Assembly: GCA_014380485.1 (NCBI GenBank)
Contig: JACMJU010000030.1
Span: forward strand, 1 to 48,488
DNA length: 48,488 nt
Source: Methyloceanibacter sp.
Lineage (GTDB): Bacteria > Pseudomonadota > Alphaproteobacteria > Rhizobiales > Methyloligellaceae
Direction: 5' to 3'
The translations under genes and the position numbers were made by a program. The notes beneath the pieces were generated by a model. It was not told the DNA's origin and searched no databases. It saw only the letters and a list, made by a program, of their open reading frames with translations. This document shows positions 15,965 through 46,048 of the stretch, piece by piece. How positions within the stretch are numbered: the stretch's first letter is position 1; each line of letters opens with the position of its first letter.

Positions 15965-16936
15965 CTAGCTCCGCTTGGTTAAGCAAGCCTGTGCCAACGG
16001 GTGATGCTGCTCGACCAGGCGGCGCAGCCGCTCCTCGATGACATGGGTATAGATCTGCGTCGTGGAGATATCGGCATGCCCGAGCAGCTGCTGCACCGTG
16101 CGTAGATCGGCGCCGCGTTCCAGGAGATGGCTGGCGAAAGCGTGGCGAAGGACGTGCGGCGAGACGCGAGCCGGCTCGAGCCCGGCGGCGAGGGCGAGCG
16201 ACTTAAGCTCCTGCCCGAAACGCTGGCGGGTGAGGTGCCGGCCGCCGCTTGAGGGGAAGAGCCAAGGCGAGACCGCCCTCCCCTCGGCTTCGTCGGCGCG
16301 GACCGCGGCAAGGTGGGCGCTCAGCGCCGCCCGAGCCGTCTCGTTCAATGGCACGAGCCGCTCACGCCCGCCTTTGCCCTTGATGGTGAGCACCCTGTCG
16401 TCGGCCATGAGCACGTTGCGCGGCAGCGAGATCAGCTCGGACACGCGCAAGCCGGTGGCATAGAGCGTCTCGAGAGCGGCATAGAGCCTCAGCGCACGCC
16501 GCTGGCCTGTCCCTTCGGCCGCCGTCGCGCCGGCATCCTTCGCGGTATCGAGAAGCGTCTCCACCTCGGCGAGCGAGAGAATTTTCGGAAGGGGACGCCC
16601 GAGCTTCGGGCTATCGATGGCGGAGCAAGGATCGTCGGCGCGCAGCCCCTCGCCCAAAAGGAAGCGGAAGAATTGGCGCATGGCCGAGAGCTTCCGCGCG
16701 CGCGAGGTCGGCGCCAACCCTCGGCGGGCGAGACCGGCGAGATAGGCGCGGAGATGATCGGGCGCTGCGGTCCTTGCGTTCTTACCCTTGGCGGCGAGGA
16801 ACGCGAGAAAGTCGGCGAGGTCGCGCGTATAGGCTTCGACGGTATGGGCAGCCGCCCCGCGCTCGGCGGCGAGCATGTCGAGGAAGAGCGCAAGCTCGGA
16901 AGAGCCTTTTCCGCGCGGCGATCGGTGTGCGCCCAA
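15965..16936 (-). CDS. xerD: Tyrosine recombinase XerD
   Basis: The 323-residue protein has a SAM-like core-binding domain (about 13-100) and a tyrosine recombinase catalytic domain with all six active-site residues: Arg164, Lys188 (GKGG), His261 and Arg264 (SPHVLRHAFASHLL), His287 (LLGHADIS) and Tyr296 (TTQIYTHV). This is the pattern of XerD, which with XerC resolves chromosome dimers at dif. Its core-gene context (aroKB, accA) argues against a phage integrase. The start is a TTG at 16936: an in-frame TGA lies just upstream and the next ATG would cut into the DNA-binding domain. Confidence 0.93.
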   Translation of the reverse strand: MGAHRSPRGKGSSELALFLDMLAAERGAAAHTVEAYTRDLADFLAFLAAKGKNARTAAPDHLRAYLAGLARRGLAPTSRARKLSAMRQFFRFLLGEGLRADDPCSAIDSPKLGRPLPKILSLAEVETLLDTAKDAGATAAEGTGQRRALRLYAALETLYATGLRVSELISLPRNVLMADDRVLTIKGKGGRERLVPLNETARAALSAHLAAVRADEAEGRAVSPWLFPSSGGRHLTRQRFGQELKSLALAAGLEPARVSPHVLRHAFASHLLERGADLRTVQQLLGHADISTTQIYTHVIEERLRRLVEQHHPLAQACLTKRS

Positions 16937-35960: not shown

Positions 35961-36029
35961 ATGTCCGCTCATGGCACAAAGCGGACGTGCCACTCGTGCT
36001 GACGAATGTCTGCTTTGAGGAAAGCATTG
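35961..36029 (+). repeat. Dispersed palindromic repeat, copy A
   Basis: Two imperfect palindromes in tandem. The first is ATGTCCGCT, loop with GGCAC, AAAGCGGAC (35961-35986). The second is AATGTCTGCTTT-GAGG-AAAGCATT (36005-36028). It lies 24 bases after the GT2 gene. Copy B shares the loop word GGCACAAAGC and the link CTGACGAATGTC with this copy. Confidence 0.75.
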
Positions 36030-36398
36030 TGAGATGGCGACCGATCGGTAGGGAGGAGTCCGTGAGCGATCTTTGCGTCATCCCCCGTCATCGCGGCGCC
36101 TCCCGTGTTCAAAGCGTCCCCGTATGGCCGCAACAAATATCAAAAGGGCGCCCAGGATTTTGAGGCGCTGCGCGGATTGAAACCAGCTGTCCGCTCCCTA
36201 CATAAGCCACATGAGCGGCCTCCGGGCGCTAGTATTTCGTAACGGGTACCTGAGTTGTCGCCAGGTCGCGATTAAGGTTGCGAATGCAACGGGCGCCATT
36301 GGAAGGGGCCCTTTTGATCCAGGTGAGATTAGGCGGCTTCCCTTATGCGCCCCTTTTTCTCTCCGCGATAAAAGGCAAAACCCCCAAGGACGTGGAGA
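36030..36398. other. Gap without a credible gene
   Basis: Short open frames occur (for example 36211-36414 plus) but lack a ribosome-binding site, family resemblance or a coherent hydrophobic pattern. Base composition is more AT-rich than in the core region. Confidence 0.5.
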
Positions 36399-36512
36399 AT
36401 GGGTGAGTTTCTGATTGCCGCTTTTGTCCTCAGTACGCTCGTTGGTGTATTGATCTACCTGTTGCTTGGAACAGTCCGCACTGCCCTCGCCTCTCACGAG
36501 AGGGAGGAATGA
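36399..36512 (+). CDS. Very small single-pass membrane protein (37 residues)
   Basis: An ATG at 36399, preceded by AAGGA (36386-36390) eight bases upstream, opens a 37-codon frame: MGEFLIAAFVLSTLVGVLIY, then a short hydrophobic stretch and a polar tail ending HEREE. Residues 4-25 would form one membrane helix. The ribosome-binding site and the clean helix-plus-charged-tail design support a real small protein; there is no homology I recognise. It is followed by two more small genes on the same strand. Confidence 0.45.
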   Translation: MGEFLIAAFVLSTLVGVLIYLLLGTVRTALASHEREE

Positions 36513-36589
36513 TTTACGGAACCCTCTAACCGTTGCGTGGCGTAGACTCTTCGCGCCAGCGAGATGGCGCGAGCGCGGTAGAGTGGCTT

Positions 36590-36856
36590 ATGTGTAGACT
36601 CCTCAAGTGGGTGTTCGCGGCGGCCTACGTGGTCGCCCTTTTCCTGTTCGCCCTGGGCACCTGGGGATGGTTTGGTGCTGACCGAGATCCCCTAGCTGGC
36701 GTGTTTGTCATTCTGCTCGGGCTGCCATGGAATCTTTTTATCGACTCTTTTCCCGATGGCTCTCCGGCAGTCTTGGCTGCGTTGGCCCCAGCGCTTAACC
36801 TGGCCATTCTCTTTTCAATCTGCTCCGCCATGCGCAGGAGACGACTCCATCCATAA
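36590..36856 (+). CDS. Small multi-pass membrane protein
   Basis: From ATG 36590 the frame gives 88 residues with three hydrophobic segments: about 5-27 (KWVFAAAYVVALFLFALGTW), 36-50 (GVFVILLGLPWNLF) and 57-78 (PAVLAALAPALNLAILFSIC), then a basic end RRRRLHP. No family recognised. The frame extends upstream to 36533 without an ATG, so the start is uncertain. The next gene overlaps its 3' part in another frame. Confidence 0.5.
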   Translation: MCRLLKWVFAAAYVVALFLFALGTWGWFGADRDPLAGVFVILLGLPWNLFIDSFPDGSPAVLAALAPALNLAILFSICSAMRRRRLHP

Positions 36857-37169
36857 GATCATCATCATCTTTGCTCTTCCTATCGCCTTCATCTCACCCG
36901 CCTTGGCGACATCAGGGCCGGGCTGTTTGGTGGTCGTGGACGTGGCCGCCGACGACGCTCTATATCTTCGCGCATCGCCATCGCTATCCGCGCGAACCGT
37001 CGATGCGCTGGTGCCCGAACAGCATGGGATTATTCATCTCGATGGAGTTTGCCGACCGACGACTACCCGCTGGGCCAGTCGGTGGTGCCCGGTCACGCAT
37101 TACTACGGTGACAAGGTCATGCGAGGTTGGGTGAAGGCTCGTTTCGTGAGAGACAGCGATTGCCCTTGA
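36756..37169 (+). CDS. Exported bacterial SH3-domain-like protein
   Basis: The reading frame encodes a hydrophobic signal (IIIIFALPIAFISPALA) followed by a compact domain with LYLRASPSLSARTVDALVP and a terminal RGWVKARFV, the pattern of bacterial SH3 (SH3b) domains (LxLRxxPs...GWVxxxYl), with four cysteines in the mature part. SH3b domains often bind peptidoglycan or other ligands in exported proteins. The start is the problem: no ATG, GTG or TTG lies just before the signal peptide. The nearest in-frame ATG (36756) is inside the upstream membrane-protein gene and adds about 50 residues of unlikely sequence. A rare start codon (ATC near 36851) or a lost start is possible. Confidence 0.55.
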   Translation: MALRQSWLRWPQRLTWPFSFQSAPPCAGDDSIHKIIIIFALPIAFISPALATSGPGCLVVVDVAADDALYLRASPSLSARTVDALVPEQHGIIHLDGVCRPTTTRWASRWCPVTHYYGDKVMRGWVKARFVRDSDCP

Positions 37170-37180
37170 TGTGTGTGTGT

Positions 37181-37247
37181 TACTGGCACAAAGCAGACAT
37201 GCTCAATGCGCTGACGAATGTCGGCTTTTGGGGCAAAGCGGACATGG
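37181..37247 (+). repeat. Dispersed palindromic repeat, copy B
   Basis: It contains TGGCACAAAGCAGACATG (37184-37201), the link CTGACGAATGTC (37211-37222) and the palindrome GTCGGCTTT...AAAGCGGAC. Order and orientation are those of copy A. It starts 12 bases after the SH3-like gene. Confidence 0.75.
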
Positions 37248-37534
37248 ACCAACCGCTGCTTACCAAAATCGATTTATGAGTACACGGCCTGGGTAGGTGT
37301 CATCGGTATCTATTGATACCCCATTGCTATCAATGGCTGGGCAGCATCTTTTGTGTACCTCAATATCCTGACTCTCCTGGAGCCAGTTGTGCAACCGGAG
37401 TACCACGGGCTAATCTGATGGATTAGCTCAAGGCGAGCGGGCTTCCCACTTCCAACAGCGCAGCCTTCGATGACGCTTATCCATCCGCCGCTGATCGAGT
37501 TCGACAAGTCGATCATCAAGTACCCCAACATTAG
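37248..37534. other. Gap without a credible gene
   Basis: A minus-strand open frame (37310-37606) begins inside repeat copy C and has no recognisable family. The stretch also holds a perfect small hairpin GGTATC-TATT-GATACC (37305-37320). It may be a remnant of a decayed gene. Confidence 0.45.
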
Positions 37535-37652
37535 GTCGGTATTGGCACGAAGCAGACATTGATGTCCGCTCTGAGGATTGTCCGCTCTTGAGGCTGAAGC
37601 GGACATGCCTAATCCACGCTCTGACCGTCCGCTAATGACCCCTAGCGGACAG
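37535..37652 (+). repeat. Dispersed palindromic repeat, copy C (longest)
   Basis: It has three palindromic parts: GTCGG...GGCACGAAGCAGAC (37535-37557); a compound part with GTCCGCTCTTGAGG...AAGCGGACATG (ending about 37606); and GTCCGCTAATGACCCCTAGC (37627-37646) followed by GGAC. The last two parts align with copy D over about 100 bases. It precedes the YkuD_2-type gene. Confidence 0.75.
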
Positions 37653-37717
37653 GACTGAAGAGCGGAAGTCCCGGGGCCGGACTCTCAACAGTCTGCTAAG
37701 ATCTTCTGCTGATCTGA

Positions 37718-38782
37718 ATGGAGACGGGGCCGTTGCCTGAGTTGGGCCGTAACGACATCGGGCCAATTACAAAGCGGTTCGACAGGAGAATTGATCCGTT
37801 GCCGTCAAGATTGCTCCTTCTAACAAATATTGTCAGCCTCAATGTCATCGTCGCCTTGTCGGGTTCGCCCCGATCCTTTGCCGTGGAGCAACCGCCGGAC
37901 GTTCCGGCTTGGCTGCGGACCCATATTGGCGAAGCTGAAGGCCAAATTGCACACGTGGTTTTAGAGAGGGCGCGCGCGCTTTACTCGCAAAAAGTGAGCG
38001 AAGGCGCGGTGAAAAATCCCTGCTACTTCGCCATGGACGCTACGCGCCCGGGTGTGTTTGGGCGACGGTTTTACGTCATCTGCGAAGCCGACCGATCGTT
38101 TCGCGCGATTTCAGCGGGTCATGGCAACGGCCGCAATTTGAAAGGCATCGCGAATTTCGCAAACGGAATACGGTGTGCGAAGAACTTCAGCAATGCGATG
38201 GATTCTAAGCTGACGGCTGGCGGCGCCTATGTGACGGAGGAGACGAGAACGTCTTTTAAAGGCTATTATCGCGACTCCGCAGGAAAATACGTGGCTTTCA
38301 GCCGCTCGTTCGTGCAGTTTGACGGCAAAGGAGATACCGCAAACGCCAGACCCCGCGCCATCGGCGGGCATCCTGCCGTGTCGTTGCGGGGAGTATGCCT
38401 TCGCAAAGATCCGGACAGCCCTTACGCAAACCAAGACGGTTACGTTCCGTTTGGACAGCTGGTGAATTACACCGGCGGCCGCAGCAACGGCTGCACGACT
38501 TGGTCGCCGTCGGACGCCGAGCAAATTATCTCGATGCTGAAGGACAAGCCGACGACGCTTTACATCTATCCTGAATCAACCGACATCGACGCCGTCGCGC
38601 AAGCGGTGAGGGTCCGCCGGTCGCCGTCGCGCGCAGCACTATATTGGAACGCCTCCTGCTTGAAAGAAATCCGCTCTCCGAAATTTTGGCCAAAAGAAAC
38701 TCTCGAGCCGATCCTCGCGCAATACAAGAAGGATCATCCGACACCGCCGCCGCGGCCGGCGCCGATTTGCAAACGGCCGTGA
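37718..38782 (+). CDS. Exported murein L,D-transpeptidase-like protein (YkuD_2 type)
   Basis: The 354-residue frame has a hydrophobic stretch at about 31-52 (LLLLTNIVSLNVIVALSG), a likely signal peptide or anchor behind an unusually long N-terminus. The body matches the YkuD_2 family: AISAGHGNGRN, ANFANGIRCAKNFSNAMDSKLTAGGAY, an Arg-Ala-Ile segment with His218, and the catalytic GGRSNGCTTWSPSDAEQI with Cys259. Family members are predicted to act on peptidoglycan peptides. The tail is proline-rich (PTPPPRPAP). It is flanked by repeat copies C and D. The gene is more AT-rich than the core paralogues, and it belongs to a different subfamily from the two YafK-type genes at 12.8-14.7 kb. Confidence 0.75.
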   Translation: METGPLPELGRNDIGPITKRFDRRIDPLPSRLLLLTNIVSLNVIVALSGSPRSFAVEQPPDVPAWLRTHIGEAEGQIAHVVLERARALYSQKVSEGAVKNPCYFAMDATRPGVFGRRFYVICEADRSFRAISAGHGNGRNLKGIANFANGIRCAKNFSNAMDSKLTAGGAYVTEETRTSFKGYYRDSAGKYVAFSRSFVQFDGKGDTANARPRAIGGHPAVSLRGVCLRKDPDSPYANQDGYVPFGQLVNYTGGRSNGCTTWSPSDAEQIISMLKDKPTTLYIYPESTDIDAVAQAVRVRRSPSRAALYWNASCLKEIRSPKFWPKETLEPILAQYKKDHPTPPPRPAPICKRP

Positions 38783-38846
38783 AATTTTCCTCTGGTCCTT
38801 GTCTCCTATACGCTGGGTTGATCAAGTGAACCCCTACCTCCGGTAA

Positions 38847-38953
38847 TCGCTCAAGGCAGACATCGATTCCGCCGGTGAACAGGTCCGCTTAGTGGGGTGA
38901 AGCGGACATCCCGGATCCGCGCTTTAGCGTCCGCTAATGACCCGAAGCGGAAG
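38847..38953 (+). repeat. Dispersed palindromic repeat, copy D
   Basis: It aligns with copy C: GGCAGACATCGAT, then GTCCGCTTAGTGGGGTGAAG with CGGACATC, then GTCCGCTAATGACCCGAAGC with GGAAG. It lies 64 bases after the YkuD_2-type gene and 85 before the amidohydrolase gene. Confidence 0.75.
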
Positions 38954-39038
38954 TTTCAACCGCGAGAAAATGCCCTGACTCTCGGGCGGTTGCGCTATCC
39001 TCAAACCTCGATCGAGGTGAAGTCTTAGAGAGGGTATC

Positions 39039-40403
39039 ATGTGGTCTCGCGTACAGATCGCGGCGCTCACGGGGCTGCTGGCGGCATCTTACTTCCCCGA
39101 CAGAATTGAGGCCGAACCCAGTCGGCCAACATCGCAATCCACGGTTCTGTTCCAGGGTGTGCGCATATTTGACGGCAAGAGCGACTCGCTTTCGGCATCT
39201 TCCAATGTGCTCGTGCGCGGCAACAAGATCGACAAAATCTCAACTGGTCCGATCTCGATCGACAACATCGCTAACGCCATCACTATCGATGGCAGCGGCC
39301 GTACACTAATGCCTGGCTTAATCGACGTGCACTGGCACGCCATGCTGGTGCGCCCAAATCCCGTCGAGGCCTTGGCCAGCGACATCGGTTATCTCAATCT
39401 ACTAGCGGGGGCCGAGGCTACTGCCACGCTGATGCGCGGCTTTACCACTATCCGCGATATGGGAGGGCCTGTTTTCGGTTTGAAACGGGCGATCTACGAA
39501 GGTCTCCTGCCGGGACCGCGCATCTACCCTTCCGGCACCGTGATCACGATTACCAGCGGTCATGGAGATTTCCGTTCGCTTTCAGAGCTACCAAGGAGAG
39601 CCGGAAAGCTATCCCGCGTTGAGGAGATGGGCGCTGCCATCATTGCTGATAGCCCGGATGAGGTCCGCCTACGTGCCCGTGAGCAACTCATGCAAGGCGC
39701 ATCACAGATCAAACTCACTGCTGGCGGTGGTGTTGCATCGCCGTTCAGTCCTCTCGATGTCGTGACCTTTACGGATCCCGAGCTTCGTGCAGCCGTCGAA
39801 GCGGCTGAGAATTGGGGCACCTATGTCTGCACCCACGCTTACACCCCGGTTTCCATTCAGCGTTCGATTGCCGCTGGAGTGAAATGCATCGAGCACGGAC
39901 ACCTGATGGAGGACGACACGGCAAGGCTGATGGCAGAGAAGGGAATATGGCTAAGCACGCAGCCGTTCCTCGAGGAAGGGGAAGGTGGCGCTCAACAACT
40001 CGGTCCTGCGGAACAGGCGAAAATGGAGCAAGTAATCGAAGGAACCGACAACGTCTACCGACTTGCGAAGAAGTACCATCTCAAGACCGCGTTCGGCACC
40101 GACATCCTGTTTTCCGCCCGCGAAGCGGAGCAGCAGGGTAACCGCTTGGCTGCGCTCATTCGCTGGTATACGCCCGCCGAAGCGCTGATCATGGCGACAT
40201 CAACGAACGCCGAATTGCTTTCTCTATCCGGTCTTCGCAACCCATACCCAGGCAAGCTCGGCGTGGTTGAGGAGGGCGCGTTGGCCGATCTTCTTGTGGT
40301 GGATGGCAATCCACTTGAGAACCTCGATCTCGTTGGAGACCCCGGCAAGAGTTTCAAACTGATCATGAAAGACGGGAAGATCTACAAGAACACCCTGCAC
40401 TGA
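39039..40403 (+). CDS. Exported metal-dependent amidohydrolase
   Basis: The 454-residue protein has a probable signal peptide (to about residue 25) and an amidohydrolase-superfamily barrel. Metal ligands are recognisable: His98 and His100 (DVHWH), Lys225 (QIKLTAGGG, a likely carboxylated bridging lysine), His266 (CTHAYTP), His286 (IEHGHLM) and Asp355 (FGTDILF). The composite C-terminal strand GALADLLVVDGNPLENL is typical. The arrangement is that of the imidazolonepropionase/prolidase-like group that includes secreted Xaa-Pro dipeptidases and some hydrolases of N-acyl or carbamate compounds; the substrate is open. The ATG follows AGAGAGGG. It is flanked by repeat copies D and E. Confidence 0.87.
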   Translation: MWSRVQIAALTGLLAASYFPDRIEAEPSRPTSQSTVLFQGVRIFDGKSDSLSASSNVLVRGNKIDKISTGPISIDNIANAITIDGSGRTLMPGLIDVHWHAMLVRPNPVEALASDIGYLNLLAGAEATATLMRGFTTIRDMGGPVFGLKRAIYEGLLPGPRIYPSGTVITITSGHGDFRSLSELPRRAGKLSRVEEMGAAIIADSPDEVRLRAREQLMQGASQIKLTAGGGVASPFSPLDVVTFTDPELRAAVEAAENWGTYVCTHAYTPVSIQRSIAAGVKCIEHGHLMEDDTARLMAEKGIWLSTQPFLEEGEGGAQQLGPAEQAKMEQVIEGTDNVYRLAKKYHLKTAFGTDILFSAREAEQQGNRLAALIRWYTPAEALIMATSTNAELLSLSGLRNPYPGKLGVVEEGALADLLVVDGNPLENLDLVGDPGKSFKLIMKDGKIYKNTLH

Positions 40404-40417
40404 CTTCGACATTCTGG

Positions 40418-40489
40418 ATGTCGGCTATTGGCACAAAGCGGACGAAGGCGCTCGGCCGCCCTGATGTCCGCAAATGACCCAAAGCGGAC
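40418..40489 (+). repeat. Dispersed palindromic repeat, copy E
   Basis: Two clean units: ATGTCGGCTATTGGCACAAA ending GCGGAC (40418-40443), and ATGTCCGCAAATGACCCAAA ending GCGGAC (40463-40488). It lies 14 bases after the amidohydrolase stop and is the simplest example of the family. Confidence 0.8.
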
Positions 40490-40523
40490 CTTCTCAATTG
40501 AAGGACTCGCCATTCTGCGCGTG

Positions 40524-41354
40524 CTAGGAATTGCGAGTCCAAGCGCCGAATTGTGCAGGCGCTAGAAGCTGACTGCCGAGGCTAACTGCCTCTTCCTCCA
40601 TTCGACTTGCCAACGTATGATCCGCGGCGACACCAGGCGGCAGAGACAATCTCAACTGCGCAAGTCGCGGAACGACGCTGATCAGCGTATTGGCAAGCCA
40701 GGCGTACACGTAGGAGCCGTGTCCTCCACCGATGATGATTTCTGCCGCAATAGTTGGGAATGGGAGGCCGGCGTCGAGTAACGTCTTGCCGAGCTGTCGC
40801 CCGACGGGAGGCGCGCCGCCACGGCGGAAGACCTCGCCCAACAGCATGCCGACCTGATCGTAGAGGGGACATGGAGGGTAGCTGGCGTCCGGGCCGGGTA
40901 AGTCAAATTCATGGAAGACGACAATGCCACCCGGTTTCACGGAACGCAGCAGCGAGCGGATGGTGGAGGACGGGTCGGGTTGGTAGAGCAGAACGTACCG
41001 GCCTACTAAGGCGTCGAATTGGTCCGTGGTCGTAAATTCATCAAGGTTGCTCGTTTCGAACTCGACCCAGGAGGAGCAGCCCTGCTCGTCTGTGCGGCGG
41101 CGGGCGTTGTCGAGAGCGTCAGCGTCGCGGTCAATACCGAGGACGCGCCCGCTGGGGCCTACGATGTCGGCGGACAGAATTGCCACGTCTCCCATGCCGG
41201 AGCCTACGTCCAATACGCGCATTCCAGGGGCGAGTCCGGCGGCACGGAAGAATTTTTCGGTGTAAGGGCGCAGCATTCGGGCCTGCAACATCAAGCGCTC
41301 ATACTCATGAATGGATTGTCCGAGGACGTAGTTGGAGGCGGTTGGGCTGCCCAT
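40524..41354 (-). CDS. SAM-dependent methyltransferase
   Basis: The 276-residue protein is a class I methyltransferase: motif I VLDVGSGMGDVAIL (47-60), the acidic ribose-binding residue in GIDRDADAL, and post-motif sequences LLRSVKPGGIVVFHEFD. It resembles UbiE/CoQ5-like and small-molecule C- or O-methyltransferases; the substrate cannot be named. It is alone on the minus strand between accessory genes and lacks a pathway context. Confidence 0.87.
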   Translation of the reverse strand: MGSPTASNYVLGQSIHEYERLMLQARMLRPYTEKFFRAAGLAPGMRVLDVGSGMGDVAILSADIVGPSGRVLGIDRDADALDNARRRTDEQGCSSWVEFETSNLDEFTTTDQFDALVGRYVLLYQPDPSSTIRSLLRSVKPGGIVVFHEFDLPGPDASYPPCPLYDQVGMLLGEVFRRGGAPPVGRQLGKTLLDAGLPFPTIAAEIIIGGGHGSYVYAWLANTLISVVPRLAQLRLSLPPGVAADHTLASRMEEEAVSLGSQLLAPAQFGAWTRNS

Positions 41355-41434
41355 TAATGCGCACCATCGAGGGGCGAGGCGTGACCGTTACTCGCGGCCC
41401 CCCCAGGCGAGGTCAATGGCGTCGAGAGCGACCT

Positions 41435-41509
41435 GATGTCAACTTGTTGCACTTAGTCGACATCGATGCCAGCGCCAATCATGTCCGCTAAGGCTCGATT
41501 TGAAGCAGG
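41435..41509 (+). repeat. Dispersed palindromic repeat, degenerate copy F
   Basis: GATGTCAACTTGTTGCACTT with CGACATC (41435-41466) and ATGTCCGCTAAGGCTCGATT with GAAGC (41481-41506) keep the order and spacing of the two units in copy E but with many mismatches. It lies behind the start of the methyltransferase gene. Confidence 0.35.
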
Positions 41510-42201: not shown

Positions 42202-44312
42202 TTAGGCGATCGCCCGGCTCCGTTCGGGCAGGGAGGTAGCCCAGTCAGGCCCCTCGAAGCGCAGCATCACATCCGCCGCTGCCGCCAGCTCCGAGCGGTG
42301 GGCGATGCTGATGCGCGTTATCCTCAGATCCTGCAAGACCTGACTGATCTGGCGCTCTTTTTCGGAATCGAGATGCGCCGTCGCTTCGTCGAGGAACAAA
42401 ATTTTTGGCCTTCGATAGAGCGCTCGCGCCAGGATGACGCGCTGCTTCTGGCCGCCCGACAGGGAATTGCCCATGTCCCCGATCAGGCTGCTATAGGCCA
42501 TTGGCATTCTCATGATATCTTCGTGGATGCCCGCCATCTCCGCGCATTCCCTCATCCACTCGTCGTCAGGCGCATTGGCAAAGAAGCAGATATTGTCGGC
42601 GATCGTTCCCGACAAAAGCTGATCGTCCTGCATGACCGCGGCAATCTGCTCGCGATAGGGTCTCGCCCCGAGAGTTTTCAGGGGGATCCCGTCAATAAAC
42701 ACTTCACCGCTGGTCGGATGCAACAATCCGAGCATGACCTTCATCAGAGTGGTCTTGCCGCATCCGGACGGTCCCATGATGGTGGCGGACTCCCCTGCCC
42801 CGAGGGCAAAGTTGACTTTTTCGAGTACGAAGTCCTCGATCTCGGAATAGCGGAACGAAACGTCGCGGACCTCGATGCTGCCACGGATCGGGCGTCTCAG
42901 TAGCGGCGTGTCGTGGCCCGGCTCCAGCGGGGTGAGCGCGATATCCGAGAGGCGCTCCAGGTGCAGTCCGACAATGCCGAAGTCGAGGGCCTTTTCGATG
43001 AGCAGGTTGGCCTTGCCGATGAATTGCTGCTTGTAGGCAATGAACGCGAACACCATCCCGACCGTGAAAACGTTGTCGAGCGCGAGCTGGGCGGCCAGAA
43101 AGATGATGAGGATGTTCTCGGCGCCAAAGAGAAGATGATTGACGGCGCCGAAACCGATATTGGCCCGCTCTAGCCGGACATCGGCGTTCACGGTCTCGGC
43201 AAAGCGGTTGAGCCACTGGCCTTCCCGTTCGGTCTCGTGATTGAAGAGCTTTACGCTCTGCATCGCGCGCAAGCTCTCGACGAAGTTCGACGTCTCGTTG
43301 GCCTTGGTCTGAATCACTCTCTCGCTCAGATCGCGAAGGTATCGGAACAGCGCGACGCGGATCACGGAGTAGCAGAGGAACGCGGCCAGAACGACCAGCG
43401 TCAGCTTGGTGCTGTACGCAAACATCACAGCCAGCGTGACGATCGCCATCGTCCCATCGATGATCGCCAGGATCAGGCTCTCGCTGATGAGGTCGCGAAC
43501 CGGTTCGATCGAGGTGAAGCGCGAGAGGACGTCGCCAATATGCCGCTTCTCGAAGAACGACAGCGGGAGCCGGATGAGATGGCGGAACAGTCTTGCGCCA
43601 AAGGCGAAGTGGAGCGTGTTCTGAAGGATCACGACAATCAGCGACCTCAGCCAGGTTACGGCGATCGTGAGCGCCGCAACCAATCCGAAGCCAAGCGCCA
43701 GCACCAGCAGCAGGTCGACATCGCCCCTGGCGATGACTTCGTCCACGGTGAGCTGCAAATAGAAGGGTCCGGCGATCACCAGAATTTCGAGCACCAGAGA
43801 CAGGGCCAGGATCTGTAGCAGCGCGTGCTTGGCGCCGCTCGCCTGCCGCAGGAAGTCCACAGGCGCAGGCGCGCCCGCTCGTCCTTGCGTTCGAAATTGG
43901 GGGTCGGCGTCAGCTCGAGGGCGACGCCCGTGAGGTGCTTTGAGGCCTCGTTCCAAGATACCCGCTTCTCGCCGATGGCGGGGTCGTGCAGGATGAGACC
44001 GCGCCTGCCTACGGACTTCAGCACGACGAAATGATTCATGTCCCAGTGAAGGATGGCAGGCAGCTTCAGCTGTCGCAGATGCTCGGGCTCGAGACGAACC
44101 GCCCGCGACGTTAAATTCAAGTGCCTGGCGATCTCGATCACGGATCCCAGCGTGACACCGTTCAACGAGACCAGATGCTGGCGCCGGAGCGCGTTCAGGT
44201 CGATGCGATGCCCGTAATAGCTCGCCACCATGGCGAGGCACGCCAGGCCGCATTCGGCCGCTTCCGATTGGACGATGACGGGCAGCGTGCGTCTGCCGCT
44301 GAAATTCAACAT
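42202..44312 (-). pseudogene. Peptidase C39-ABC exporter (CvaB/RaxB-like), frameshifted
   Basis: Two overlapping frames together encode one bacteriocin-type exporter. Frame one (from ATG 44312) holds the C39 peptidase with Gln15, Cys21 (ECGLACLAMV), a His in HWDMNHFVVL and an Asp in ILHDPAIG. Frame two holds six membrane helices and the ATPase: Walker A GPSGCGKTT, Q-loop MQDDQ, signature LSGGQKQR, Walker B ILFLDEATAHLD, switch SIAHR. The break is at 43857-43858: restoring one base (CC to CCC on the plus strand) gives continuous LRLWDFLRQASG and about 703 residues, the family length. It is a real mutation, a sequencing error, or slippage. In the family, the peptidase removes a double-glycine leader while the ABC part exports the peptide. 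It follows the adaptor gene by 19 bases. Confidence 0.82.
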
Positions 44313-44331
44313 GAGCCCCTGCTCCGCTTAG

Positions 44332-45576
44332 CTACATCCTGACGTTTAGAATGGGATCCAAGAGCCAGCGAACGAGCTCGCGCCGCTCCAGAAGAATGTC
44401 GGCGCGCAGCAGCATGCCGGCCTGAAGCGGGATCTTCTGGCCGTTGGCATCGACATCGGGCCGATCGAGGGCGGCTATGACCTTGTAAGCCGCCTCGCGC
44501 AGCTGGACGGGAGCCGCGACTTCGGTTTCCGACAGGATCGTCTTCGACACGCTCACGACGTGTCCGGAATACGTTCCGAAGCGCTGGAATGGAAACGCCT
44601 CATACAGCAGCCGCACCTTCTGGCCGGGGCGAACGAATCCGATGGCGCGCGTCGGGACGAACAGCACCGCCTGAAGCGGGCTTTCGAGGGGGAGAATGTC
44701 GAGTTGCGGCTTTTTAGGATCGGCAATTTGCCCGACCTTGGCCTGGACATTGGCGACGCGGCCATCGATCGGCGCACGAATGGAAAAGGACTGACGCCCG
44801 CCGATCTCTGCGCTGCGCTGGTCGATCTGGGCCAACTCGCTTTGCAGCGGTTGAAGCCTGCGGGCCGATTGGGTGGGCATTTGCTCGAGCGCTGAGCGGG
44901 TCTCGGCGAGTTCGGTTTCGCGCGCGACGTGGCGTTGTTTCAGCGCGCTCAGCCCTTGTCTCGCCTGGAGCAAGCCTTCTCTCCGGCTGAAGAGCTCGGG
45001 GGCGGCCATGTAGCCCGCGGCGTGCATCTTCTCTGCGGTATTGACCAGCTTCTGGGCCAGGTCGATTTGCTCTTGTTGAATTTGCATCTGCGCGGAGAGT
45101 TGCGCCAATTCGGCCTGCCCGCTGGTTATGGCGGCGGTGAGCCGGGCGTGCTCGGCCCGCGTGGTTCTCTCTTCCTCGTTGACCTGATTGGTCAGAAGCG
45201 TCTTCTGCAAGGACAGACTTTTCAGGATCGTCGCGTTCACATCGACCCCGTCGGCGGTAATCTGAGACGTGTCGATGGTGAGGAGGATGTCGCCTTTGGC
45301 CACCCGTTGTTCCTGCGCAACATGGACCGCCGTGATGGTCCCCTGCTCGGGTACGAAAATGTTCGAGGTTCCGAGCGCGGGAGCGAGATAACCCCCGACG
45401 GTCTCCTTTCGCGTGTAGCCGGCAATACAGACAAAGACGATCAGAGAGCCGACGGCGATGGTCAGCAGCCACGCGAGCGCCTTCGCCGACGACGACTGAA
45501 GCCGGCCCACTTGGCCGAACTCACGATATTGCTTTTGAAATTCGAGAGCCTCGGGACGGAACAGGGAACGTGTCAT
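44332..45576 (-). CDS. HlyD-family periplasmic adaptor (CvaA/RaxA-like)
   Basis: The 414-residue protein is a membrane fusion protein of type I secretion: a short cytoplasmic N-terminus (MTRSLFRPEALEF), one membrane helix (about 34-55, ALAWLLTIAVGSLIVFVCIAG), the lipoyl halves (GYLAPALGTSNIFVPEQGTI; FSIRAPIDGRVANVQAKVGQ) around a long coiled coil (about 110-250), and a beta-barrel end. LFRPEAL at the start and the YTRKETVGGYL segment are typical of adaptors paired with C39-ABC exporters. A TTG at 45594 is an alternative start. An outer-membrane TolC-like partner is not in the window. Confidence 0.9.
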   Translation of the reverse strand: MTRSLFRPEALEFQKQYREFGQVGRLQSSSAKALAWLLTIAVGSLIVFVCIAGYTRKETVGGYLAPALGTSNIFVPEQGTITAVHVAQEQRVAKGDILLTIDTSQITADGVDVNATILKSLSLQKTLLTNQVNEEERTTRAEHARLTAAITSGQAELAQLSAQMQIQQEQIDLAQKLVNTAEKMHAAGYMAAPELFSRREGLLQARQGLSALKQRHVARETELAETRSALEQMPTQSARRLQPLQSELAQIDQRSAEIGGRQSFSIRAPIDGRVANVQAKVGQIADPKKPQLDILPLESPLQAVLFVPTRAIGFVRPGQKVRLLYEAFPFQRFGTYSGHVVSVSKTILSETEVAAPVQLREAAYKVIAALDRPDVDANGQKIPLQAGMLLRADILLERRELVRWLLDPILNVRM

Positions 45577-46048
45577 GGCCGTACGTGGTCGCAACCCATC
45601 TCCAGAAGTGGCAACTCCCCCCGCCCGCGCGGGACGGAGGGAGTTGGTTCATAGTCCACAAGCCATTACCGCATTCCTAAGTCGCGGTGCACGCCCTAGG
45701 TCTTGACCTCTACTCTATTCCTAGCTCTCGTGATGGAGGACGAGGTAGAACTCGCTTAATCCATGGCTACCGTATGGATGACGCAATGGTTGCGGAAAGA
45801 GTCACATTCGTCTCAGTTTTTAGTTTTGTTATGGATTCAATCGTCGCGCGCAAAGTTTCGACACGCCAAGCGGCTTGCTTTGAATAATGAGGCGTGGGGT
45901 CTCGGCGGGACGAGGAACGGACGGGAGCGAAACTGCCGCGCATGCGAGGGCAACGCCGCTCGACCCTTTTTACGATCTTGGCAAATGGTTCGGGCGATGC
46001 GAGAGGCGCATCCCCGCAACGCGACCCAAATTTGCGCCGGGTCGGTCC
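45577..46048. other. Gap without a credible gene
   Basis: This 472-base stretch precedes the exporter operon (minus) and follows hbd (minus). Open frames on both strands overlap neighbours or lack a ribosome-binding site. I looked for a peptide with a double-glycine leader as exporter cargo and found none here, nor at 41355-41652 or 41980-42201. The promoter for the adaptor-exporter pair must lie here, but no clear hexamers stand out. Confidence 0.5.

Follow-up and report, generated by a model that had tools for sequence, protein, structure and literature searches.

In the present study, we analyzed 48,488 nucleotides of Methyloceanibacter sp. DNA (contig JACMJU010000030.1; this whole stretch is referred to as the window), in which a family of palindromic repeats lies between genes at 35.96-41.5 kb. 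Six oriented multi-palindrome copies occupy this interval, all in one shared orientation and all between open reading frames (ORFs), and the rest of the window is without matches to their unit. The unit measures 28 bp including AT/AT ends and has an 11-6-11 layout, in which 11-bp inverted arms (GTCCGCT/AGCGGAC) flank an asymmetric hexamer. With up to three mismatches, GTCCGCTNNTGRCNCNAAGCGGAC was matched six times in the 48,488 bases, each time on the + strand and all between 35,963 and 40,489, against 0.02 matches expected by chance from dinucleotide shuffles. An earlier sequence-only reading had described five clear copies and one weak copy that run in one direction between genes, with loop words in fixed order and none at 1-33 kb, and these points were confirmed: the clear copies start at 35961 (A), 37173 (B), 37532 (C), 38836 (D), and 40418 (E), and a decayed one at 41438 (F). 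Its further statement that each copy strings two or three palindromes together held insofar as the copies are multi-unit, but not all of the palindromes are intact. The order inside the copies is TGGCAC, then a G-rich unit (TGAGG or TGGGG; copies A to D), and then TGACCC (copies C, D, and E); copies A and B lack the TGACCC unit, copy E lacks the G-rich unit, and the left arm of the first unit is degraded in copies B, C, and D. Aligned as a single gapped element, the copies gave a messy result, since they hold different unit sets, and handling the units separately resolved it.

Copy A begins with a 28-bp unit of centre TGGCAC with two perfect 7-bp arms (35961..35988), followed by a degraded unit (36006..36030; GTCTGCT..TTGAGG..AAGC). 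Between copies A and B, the segment 36533..37169 holds two overlapping small ORFs of 107 and 154 aa on the + strand, and no Pfam match was obtained for the 154-aa ORF. The first unit of copy B (37173..37200) has kept the TGGCAC centre and the right arm, its left arm being foreign to the family, and is followed by a unit of the TGGGGC type (37218..37245); this copy is 91% alike over 107 bp to the site G000:C139:10547, and the local alignment begins at the hexamer itself. The tail TTTATGAGTACACG after copy B (37273..37286, + strand) also stands behind composite (multi-unit) sites on C139 and C102 and, minus its last two bases, in L118. A tail of the form ..CGATTTATGAGTACA.. in copy B, C139, and L118, with a different start in C102, is conserved, trails composites of TGGCAC and G-rich units, and could mark one end of an array. 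Three units make up copy C, namely TGGCAC with a degraded left arm (37532..37559), TGAGGC (37580..37604), and TGACCC (37625..37652), and three make up copy D, namely a degraded unit with the centre TCGCTC (38836..38863), a unit of the TGGGGTG type (38883..38907), and TGACCC (38927..38954). The centre TCGCTC in copy D (38847-38852) is, probably by chance, the reverse complement of GAGCGA, a hexamer of enterobacterial sites. Copy E joins a TGGCAC unit (40418..40445) to a TGACCC unit (40464..40491) 46 bp past it, and the decayed first unit of copy F has the centre TTGCAC (41438..41461), with a second arm GTCCGCT at 41483.

The genes between these copies are a YkuD_2 L,D-transpeptidase-like gene (C-D, 37718..38782, + strand), an amidohydrolase gene (PF01979; D-E, 39039..40403, + strand), and a methyltransferase gene (PF13847; E-F, 40524..41354), which lies on the - strand, reverse to the remaining genes. 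Five other genomes carry copies of the YkuD gene, at 86% in G015 and at 72-76% in the rest, and no units were found near these relatives in the stretches examined. The interval from a tRNA-Arg gene (33371) to a 3-hydroxyacyl-CoA dehydrogenase-like gene (46049 on) was compared in six relatives, one contig each, and contained no unit; blastn found nothing else in it resembling the window. We read the window as carrying what appears to be an array of captured genes at a variable chromosomal spot, with four to five putative cassettes and without a recombinase gene in a genome that is 86% complete; in this respect, it resembles an integron array that lacks its integrase.

The repeats had been thought to be confined to the accessory region, a claim that did not survive: thirteen places on five contigs of the source genome matched GTCCGCTNNTGRCNCNAAGCGGAC at up to three mismatches, and the unit at up to two mismatches was present in 36 of the 61 genomes searched (source genome included). 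Up to 73 strand matches were obtained in one genome; the 61-genome counts cover both strands, and some palindromic places therefore count twice. The reversed pattern, used as a control, gave one match in each of four genomes. Among the matches listed, the exact 20-position form of the first unit, for which less than one match is expected by chance in such a collection (our own arithmetic, uniform bases), occurs in Hyphomicrobiales, many Enterobacterales, Idiomarina, and a Nitrosospira metagenome-assembled genome (MAG), and also on prophage contigs; odd hosts such as an Anaerolineales MAG may be contamination. With E up to 10, a 30-nt unit query had matches in 3617 of 5426 complete E. coli genomes, 2895 of 72,556 plasmid records, and 45 of 50,697 phage records; when 80% or more of the query had to be covered, the numbers were 3373, 2303, and 34, respectively. 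The weakest phage matches partly look like chance, and 12 of the phage records are Peduovirus (P2-like). The highest number of unit places in one plasmid record was 21 (Pantoea), and a blast of a 200-bp copy against plasmids gave weak partial matches only. Enterobacterial composites have the second-unit hexamer GAGCGA where the window has TGACCC. Two alphaproteobacterial genomes, G067 and G076, have some 26-55 units each, many with the centre TGGCTA, without the recombinase family described below; G067 has 26 matches to PF00589.

An array was found on a Pantoea megaplasmid, where seven sites in 6 kb share one direction and have single genes between them (GNAT, DUF2268 protease, LysE, SDR, GNAT, and DUF6886); an array of single-gene cassettes with co-oriented sites, a feature of integrons, is thus present. 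In this array, 23 of the 24 distinct interior megablast ends, at seven joints, fell within 10 bp of a unit, a condition to which 6.9% of positions conform; the test used 40 of 1639 records, alignment ends lying no more than approximately 10 bases from an end of the query were not used, and the inner ends of two-piece rows were left uncounted. Neighboring sites 0.2-3 kb apart were on the same strand in 44 of 46 pairs from 41 alphaproteobacterial loci and in 26 of 27 pairs from five gammaproteobacterial loci, with a median spacing of 1136 and 880 bp, respectively. Within composites, TGGCAC or TGGCTA came first and TGACCC or GAGCGA second in 42 of 44, the other two pairing like units. TGGCAC or TGGCTA is separated from TGACCC by 45-46 or 92-93 bp, the longer spacing belonging to composites with a third, G-rich unit in the middle, and TGGCAC from GAGCGA by 38-42 bp.

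The position at which flanking DNA changes was examined in 246 exact TGGCAC sites among the matches listed, with 40 bp on both sides and 216 distinct combinations. On prophage contigs, a given right flank occurs with many different left flanks, and a given left flank with many right flanks; prophages often have a constant flank, a GAGCGA unit, and then variable DNA, or variable DNA, a TGGCAC unit, and then a constant flank. When the right flank was shared and the left differed, the two nucleotides to the right of the TGGCAC hexamer agreed in 155 of 195 pairs and those to the left in 26 of 195, and in pairs sharing the left flank agreement was 16/24 on the left and 10/24 on the right. Unrelated pairs agreed in 18% (left) and 22% (right), and none of 5000 permutations reached either observed value. 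This pattern of dinucleotide agreement implies that partners are switched between the two dinucleotides, at the hexamer. For GAGCGA (121 sites, 95 combinations), left-shared pairs agreed on the left in 49 of 58 and on the right in 12 of 58, compared with 25% and 21%, respectively, in unrelated pairs. In the alphaproteobacterial sites, sequence sharing ends at the outer units, and finer mapping fails. The suggestion in the sequence-only reading that the repeats are marks of past insertions pointed in the right direction, since the flank switches, the Pantoea alignment ends, and the half-sites of a recombinase described below indicate that the units are joints of cassette exchange. As a separate observation, in lambdoid-type prophages (L163, L166, L173, and others from IMG/VR), the TGGCAC junction has its constant side at a DUF977 gene, and further unit matches lie inside ydfV; the DUF977 and ydfV loci may be cassette-exchange spots of E. 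coli prophages.

Among the recombinases of site-bearing genomes, a tyrosine recombinase family of approximately 200-210 aa (PF00589) sits between sites in G003 and G026. Both of these members are linked to sites, as opposed to three of 58 other PF00589 loci (60 loci in 12 genomes; Fisher 0.006). This compact recombinase was detected in 16 of 385 alphaproteobacterial genomes, with up to eight candidate frames scored per genome, in eight of 40 named genomes holding exact units, mostly Enterobacterales, and on plasmids of Pantoea, Erwinia, E. coli, Roseomonas, Agrobacterium, and Paracoccus. The catalytic residues R59, K87, H156, R159, H182, and Y191 are invariant in all 14 aligned members, the PDB matches are XerD, XerA, and XerH, and the Xer-like scores in NCBIfam are all below threshold. 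The integron integrase model TIGR02249 gave 20.3 bits for P0001 against a cut-off of 265 and listed none of the other four proteins scanned. Three further small recombinases of site-rich genomes (G025:C66, G011:C381, and G003:C7) were dropped as candidates because no units were found in the examined surrounding stretches.

The motif GTGCCA-NN-AGCGGAC (up to two mismatches, within 150 bp) occurred at 15 of 38 ends of intact recombinase genes and in 31 of 1880 windows drawn at random from these loci. In a set of 11 enterobacterial loci, consisting of four plasmid matches and seven of the eight loci from unit-bearing genomes, the stop codon is in every case followed by a hairpin and then by GTGCCA-NN-half-arm at +26/27; the eighth locus, from Idiomarina, has three mismatches at +30, and the set does not extend to the listed matches H191 (Moellerella, two pieces), H193 (E. 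coli), and H198 (Pantoea, two pieces). Across the 11 loci, the 26 bp before the hexamer have a mean identity of 93%, while the 50 bp after the site have 28%, with one of 55 pairs alike. Upstream of the recombinase, nine of the 11 have the centre TCGCTC, its recombinase-side half being kept and its outer half variable. Therefore, an acceptor site beside the recombinase gene with a varying first cassette, another feature of integrons, was present at all 11 loci. In the alphaproteobacterial relatives L359, L360, and L394, the half-site is at +49/50 with the centre GTGCCA, and in L392 as well as in L395 and L408, both of one genome, it is at the same distance with, by eye, the centre TAGCCA, the reverse complement of TGGCTA, which is the unit type found in G019 arrays. 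The first cassette beside the recombinase in L387, an E. coli plasmid, is found again in several prophage junctions, where it forms the left flank, and the recombinase can also lie inside an array (L385 and L386).

Sequence comparison places the cassette boundaries at the units and, in Gammaproteobacteria, the breakpoints at the hexamer, and it establishes the common orientation of the sites and the linkage of the recombinase to half-sites. On these grounds, we consider it probable that the palindromes serve as core sites at which site-specific recombination takes place and that they mark the limits of gene cassettes in an integron-like system, which is not a classical integron. In the mechanism that we propose, two inverted 11-bp recombinase arms in each 28-bp unit would bracket the asymmetric 6-bp centre at which strands are exchanged, and a composite would present two centres (TGGCAC, and TGACCC or GAGCGA), 38-46 bp apart (92-93 bp with a G-rich unit between them), that would not be expected to cross-react. 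Since the two centres of a composite are unlike, a gene would have a different kind at each of its ends and could be exchanged or inserted in a defined orientation, a directional process that would be integron-like and formally akin to recombinase-mediated cassette exchange. The likely enzyme is the recombinase of approximately 200 aa that is itself situated between half-sites, and the half-site behind its stop codon may act as an acceptor in the manner of attI. We infer that this recombinase performs the exchange; the two centres presumably do not cross-react, and the alphaproteobacterial sites presumably work like the gammaproteobacterial sites. Composites may in part function as folded single strands, like attC, and copy E folds as one long hairpin (z -2.07; seven of 200 shuffles fold equally well).

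Among known systems, integrons and clusters of attC sites lacking integron integrases (CALIN) likewise have arrays in which most cassettes hold one gene and the composite palindromic sites point the same way; a tyrosine recombinase with an adjoining acceptor half-site and the existence of arrays without an enzyme are further common features. In contrast to IntI, the recombinase here has approximately 200 aa and almost no N-terminal domain. The core consensus of integron attC sites is RYYYAAC/GTTRRRY, which the arms GTCCGCT/AGCGGAC do not resemble in a by-eye comparison. The system also differs from integrons in having two separately exchanging hexamers, an acceptor at the 3' end of the enzyme gene, and an enzyme that can sit inside the array. 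In its architecture, it works like an integron with pdif-sized sites and lacks two defining integron features, IntI and the attC core. The pdif modules of Acinetobacter plasmids have 28-bp sites of 11-6-11 layout with a central hexamer that flank adaptive genes (PMC6449649), and the present units share this size and layout. They differ in that their arms are mutual copies and do not appear dif-like and in their pairing into composite sites, their co-orientation, and a dedicated recombinase linked to half-sites.

The same unit sequences flank the exchanged gene of phage P2-EC67 (AJ512685), the annotated left inverted repeat of which contains a TGGCAC unit by search and the right repeat of which has, by eye, a TCGCTC (= GAGCGA) centre. 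The inverted repeats of the Z/fun region in P2-like phages were reportedly called site-specific recombination sites by Nilsson, Karlsson, and Haggard-Ljungquist in 2004, as the title of their article has it. Such repeats of P2-like phages enable the exchange of fun according to a review (PMC8987985). Beyond these repeats, the arrays, the alphaproteobacterial sites, and the candidate recombinase come from the present analysis. While the copies in P2 phages are known as recombination sites, we found no report of the arrays, the alphaproteobacterial sites, or the enzyme in a search beyond the reach of which lay most subscription papers and figures, and six 14-nt unit strings had no match in the literature texts searched.

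Several results weigh against our reading. The orientation of genes relative to the sites is mixed, 23 of 36 Pantoea genes facing one way, and a rule that the gene end faces the site was dropped because only these 23 of 36 complied; the 36 genes were read by hand in five stretches, and the four-gene operon of NZ_CP081343.1 (70.9-75.3 kb) and genes outside arrays were excluded. Right-shared GAGCGA pairs form a thin sample, agreeing on the right in 13 of 22 and on the left in eight of 22, and the dinucleotide test was weak for alphaproteobacterial sites, in which right-shared pairs agreed on the right in 39 of 127 and on the left in 29 of 127. The association of the recombinase with sites across the 60 PF00589 loci had partly been seen before counting and is post hoc, and the enterobacterial count of 11/11 does not represent 11 independent cases because it rests on closely related recombinases. 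Distant members of the family were without such half-sites, and no member of the compact family was found in G011, G021, G025, or G028, all of which are unit-rich. In the source genome, two weak matches to the recombinase were obtained, both to frames of approximately 320 aa, the size of XerC/XerD. An ORF at 15965-16936 of the window, weakly matched by the recombinase query, looks like a host XerC or XerD gene. Only five of 16 recombinase-positive alphaproteobacterial genomes have units with these arms, and two of 16 negative ones have 110 and 54 strand matches (reversed-pattern control: one match in each of three genomes); recombinase and sites are thus not linked by genome in this sample, and a genome-level link between recombinase presence and site number was sought in this class-wide alphaproteobacterial sample and not found.

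This missing genome-level link, together with the presence of just two PF00589 genes in genomes with many sites, for example G019 (97% complete, 40 strand matches), speaks for an explanation in which the sites are real and host XerC/XerD, or an unseen recombinase, act on them as in pdif modules, the compact recombinase being a passenger. The whole case is comparative. Host Xer action on the sites is possible, and the 11-6-11 layout equals that of dif and pdif in the source cited above (PMC6449649). Nevertheless, we regard this explanation as unlikely: both arms of the units are copies of one sequence, GTCCGCT/AGCGGAC, whereas the arms for XerC and XerD differ, and the compact recombinase is flanked by two fixed half-sites, each of a different kind, unlike an ordinary passenger.

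Repetitive extragenic palindromic (REP) or bacterial interspersed mosaic element (BIME)-type palindromes, either selfish or structural and spread by a REP-associated tyrosine transposase (RAYT), would also be intergenic, palindromic, arranged in mosaics, and present in tens of copies. RIME, an intergenic mosaic of palindromic units, shows the same general likeness. Moreover, 287 of 413 distinct exact units start with TGTC or CGTC (TGTC 181, CGTC 106, GGTC 66, AGTC 60), the tag form of the CGTC repeats of Alphaproteobacteria, which have a CGTC/TGTC/CCTC tag, an 8-9 bp stem starting with AT, a 4-5 nt loop, and a CCA tail (PMC3733652). The present units instead have 7-bp arms and centres of 10-11 nt, as compared with that text definition alone. 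Br-REPs have been described in B. japonicum, which speaks for REP-like elements; the consensus sequences quoted in the source (PMC5082802) are, by eye, unlike the units. The Y1/RAYT transposase model PF01797 found nothing in eight of eight genomes searched, source genome included, the breakpoints lie at the hexamer, and single genes stand between co-oriented sites, the units being boundaries of exchanged genes. The REP/RAYT explanation is thus largely refuted and very improbable, and the proposal in the sequence-only reading of mobile miniature elements is not supported as such, since the variable part is the DNA between the sites and the transposase model gave no match. That reading had also proposed termination or RNA-processing units at gene ends, to which the hairpin folding of single units and the beginning of the first units of A, B, D, and E 4-54 bp past stop codons would be suited; nonetheless, this appears highly unlikely because the three terminator-like matches at 35.9-41.6 kb, fewer than in shuffles, include none at a unit, genes occur in both orientations to the sites, and flanks switch at the hexamer. 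No RNA family was found at the units in an Rfam scan at the gathering threshold, which gave one tRNA only. Inverted 7-bp arms at a fixed spacing might also be expected of operators for one widespread regulator, a notion that is scarcely credible given that the asymmetric centre is highly constant, the genes bracketed are single and unrelated, the composite order is fixed, and homology switches at the hexamer; the flank-switch pattern likewise contradicts the ordinary operator sites that had been raised as an alternative to the repeat family.

With somewhat less assurance than for the sites themselves, we favor the view that there may be a third bacterial cassette system beside integrons and Xer/pdif, in which a recombinase of approximately 200 aa and two heterospecific 28-bp sites would mediate the directional exchange of single genes among the chromosomes, plasmids, and prophages of Alpha- and Gammaproteobacteria. 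If this is true, well-studied genomes, such as those of E. coli and plasmids, contain a system of cassette exchange that has sites of its own and a candidate enzyme and that would explain the movement of single accessory genes, including acetyltransferases, phage-resistance genes, and metabolic enzymes, among plasmids, prophages, and chromosomes. The fun-type gene swapping of P2-like phages, an old question, would become directly testable. Since the sites are unlike attC or dif, tools built on these should not report the system, which is apparently common to soil bacteria, gut bacteria, and their plasmids and phages and has been little noticed.

Two minor observations were also made. On a Roseomonas plasmid (L390; NZ_CP015585.1, 245752-254339), two recombinase genes of the compact family lie among single RelE/ParE, VOC, NUDIX, GST, and catB genes, and a different hairpin (GCGGCGGC..) is present past the stop codon, which may represent a sister cassette array with other site sequences. 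The array in the window is adjoined by a predicted peptidase-containing ABC exporter and an HlyD-like protein (42202-45594), which, as read from their sequences, are of the bacteriocin-export kind.

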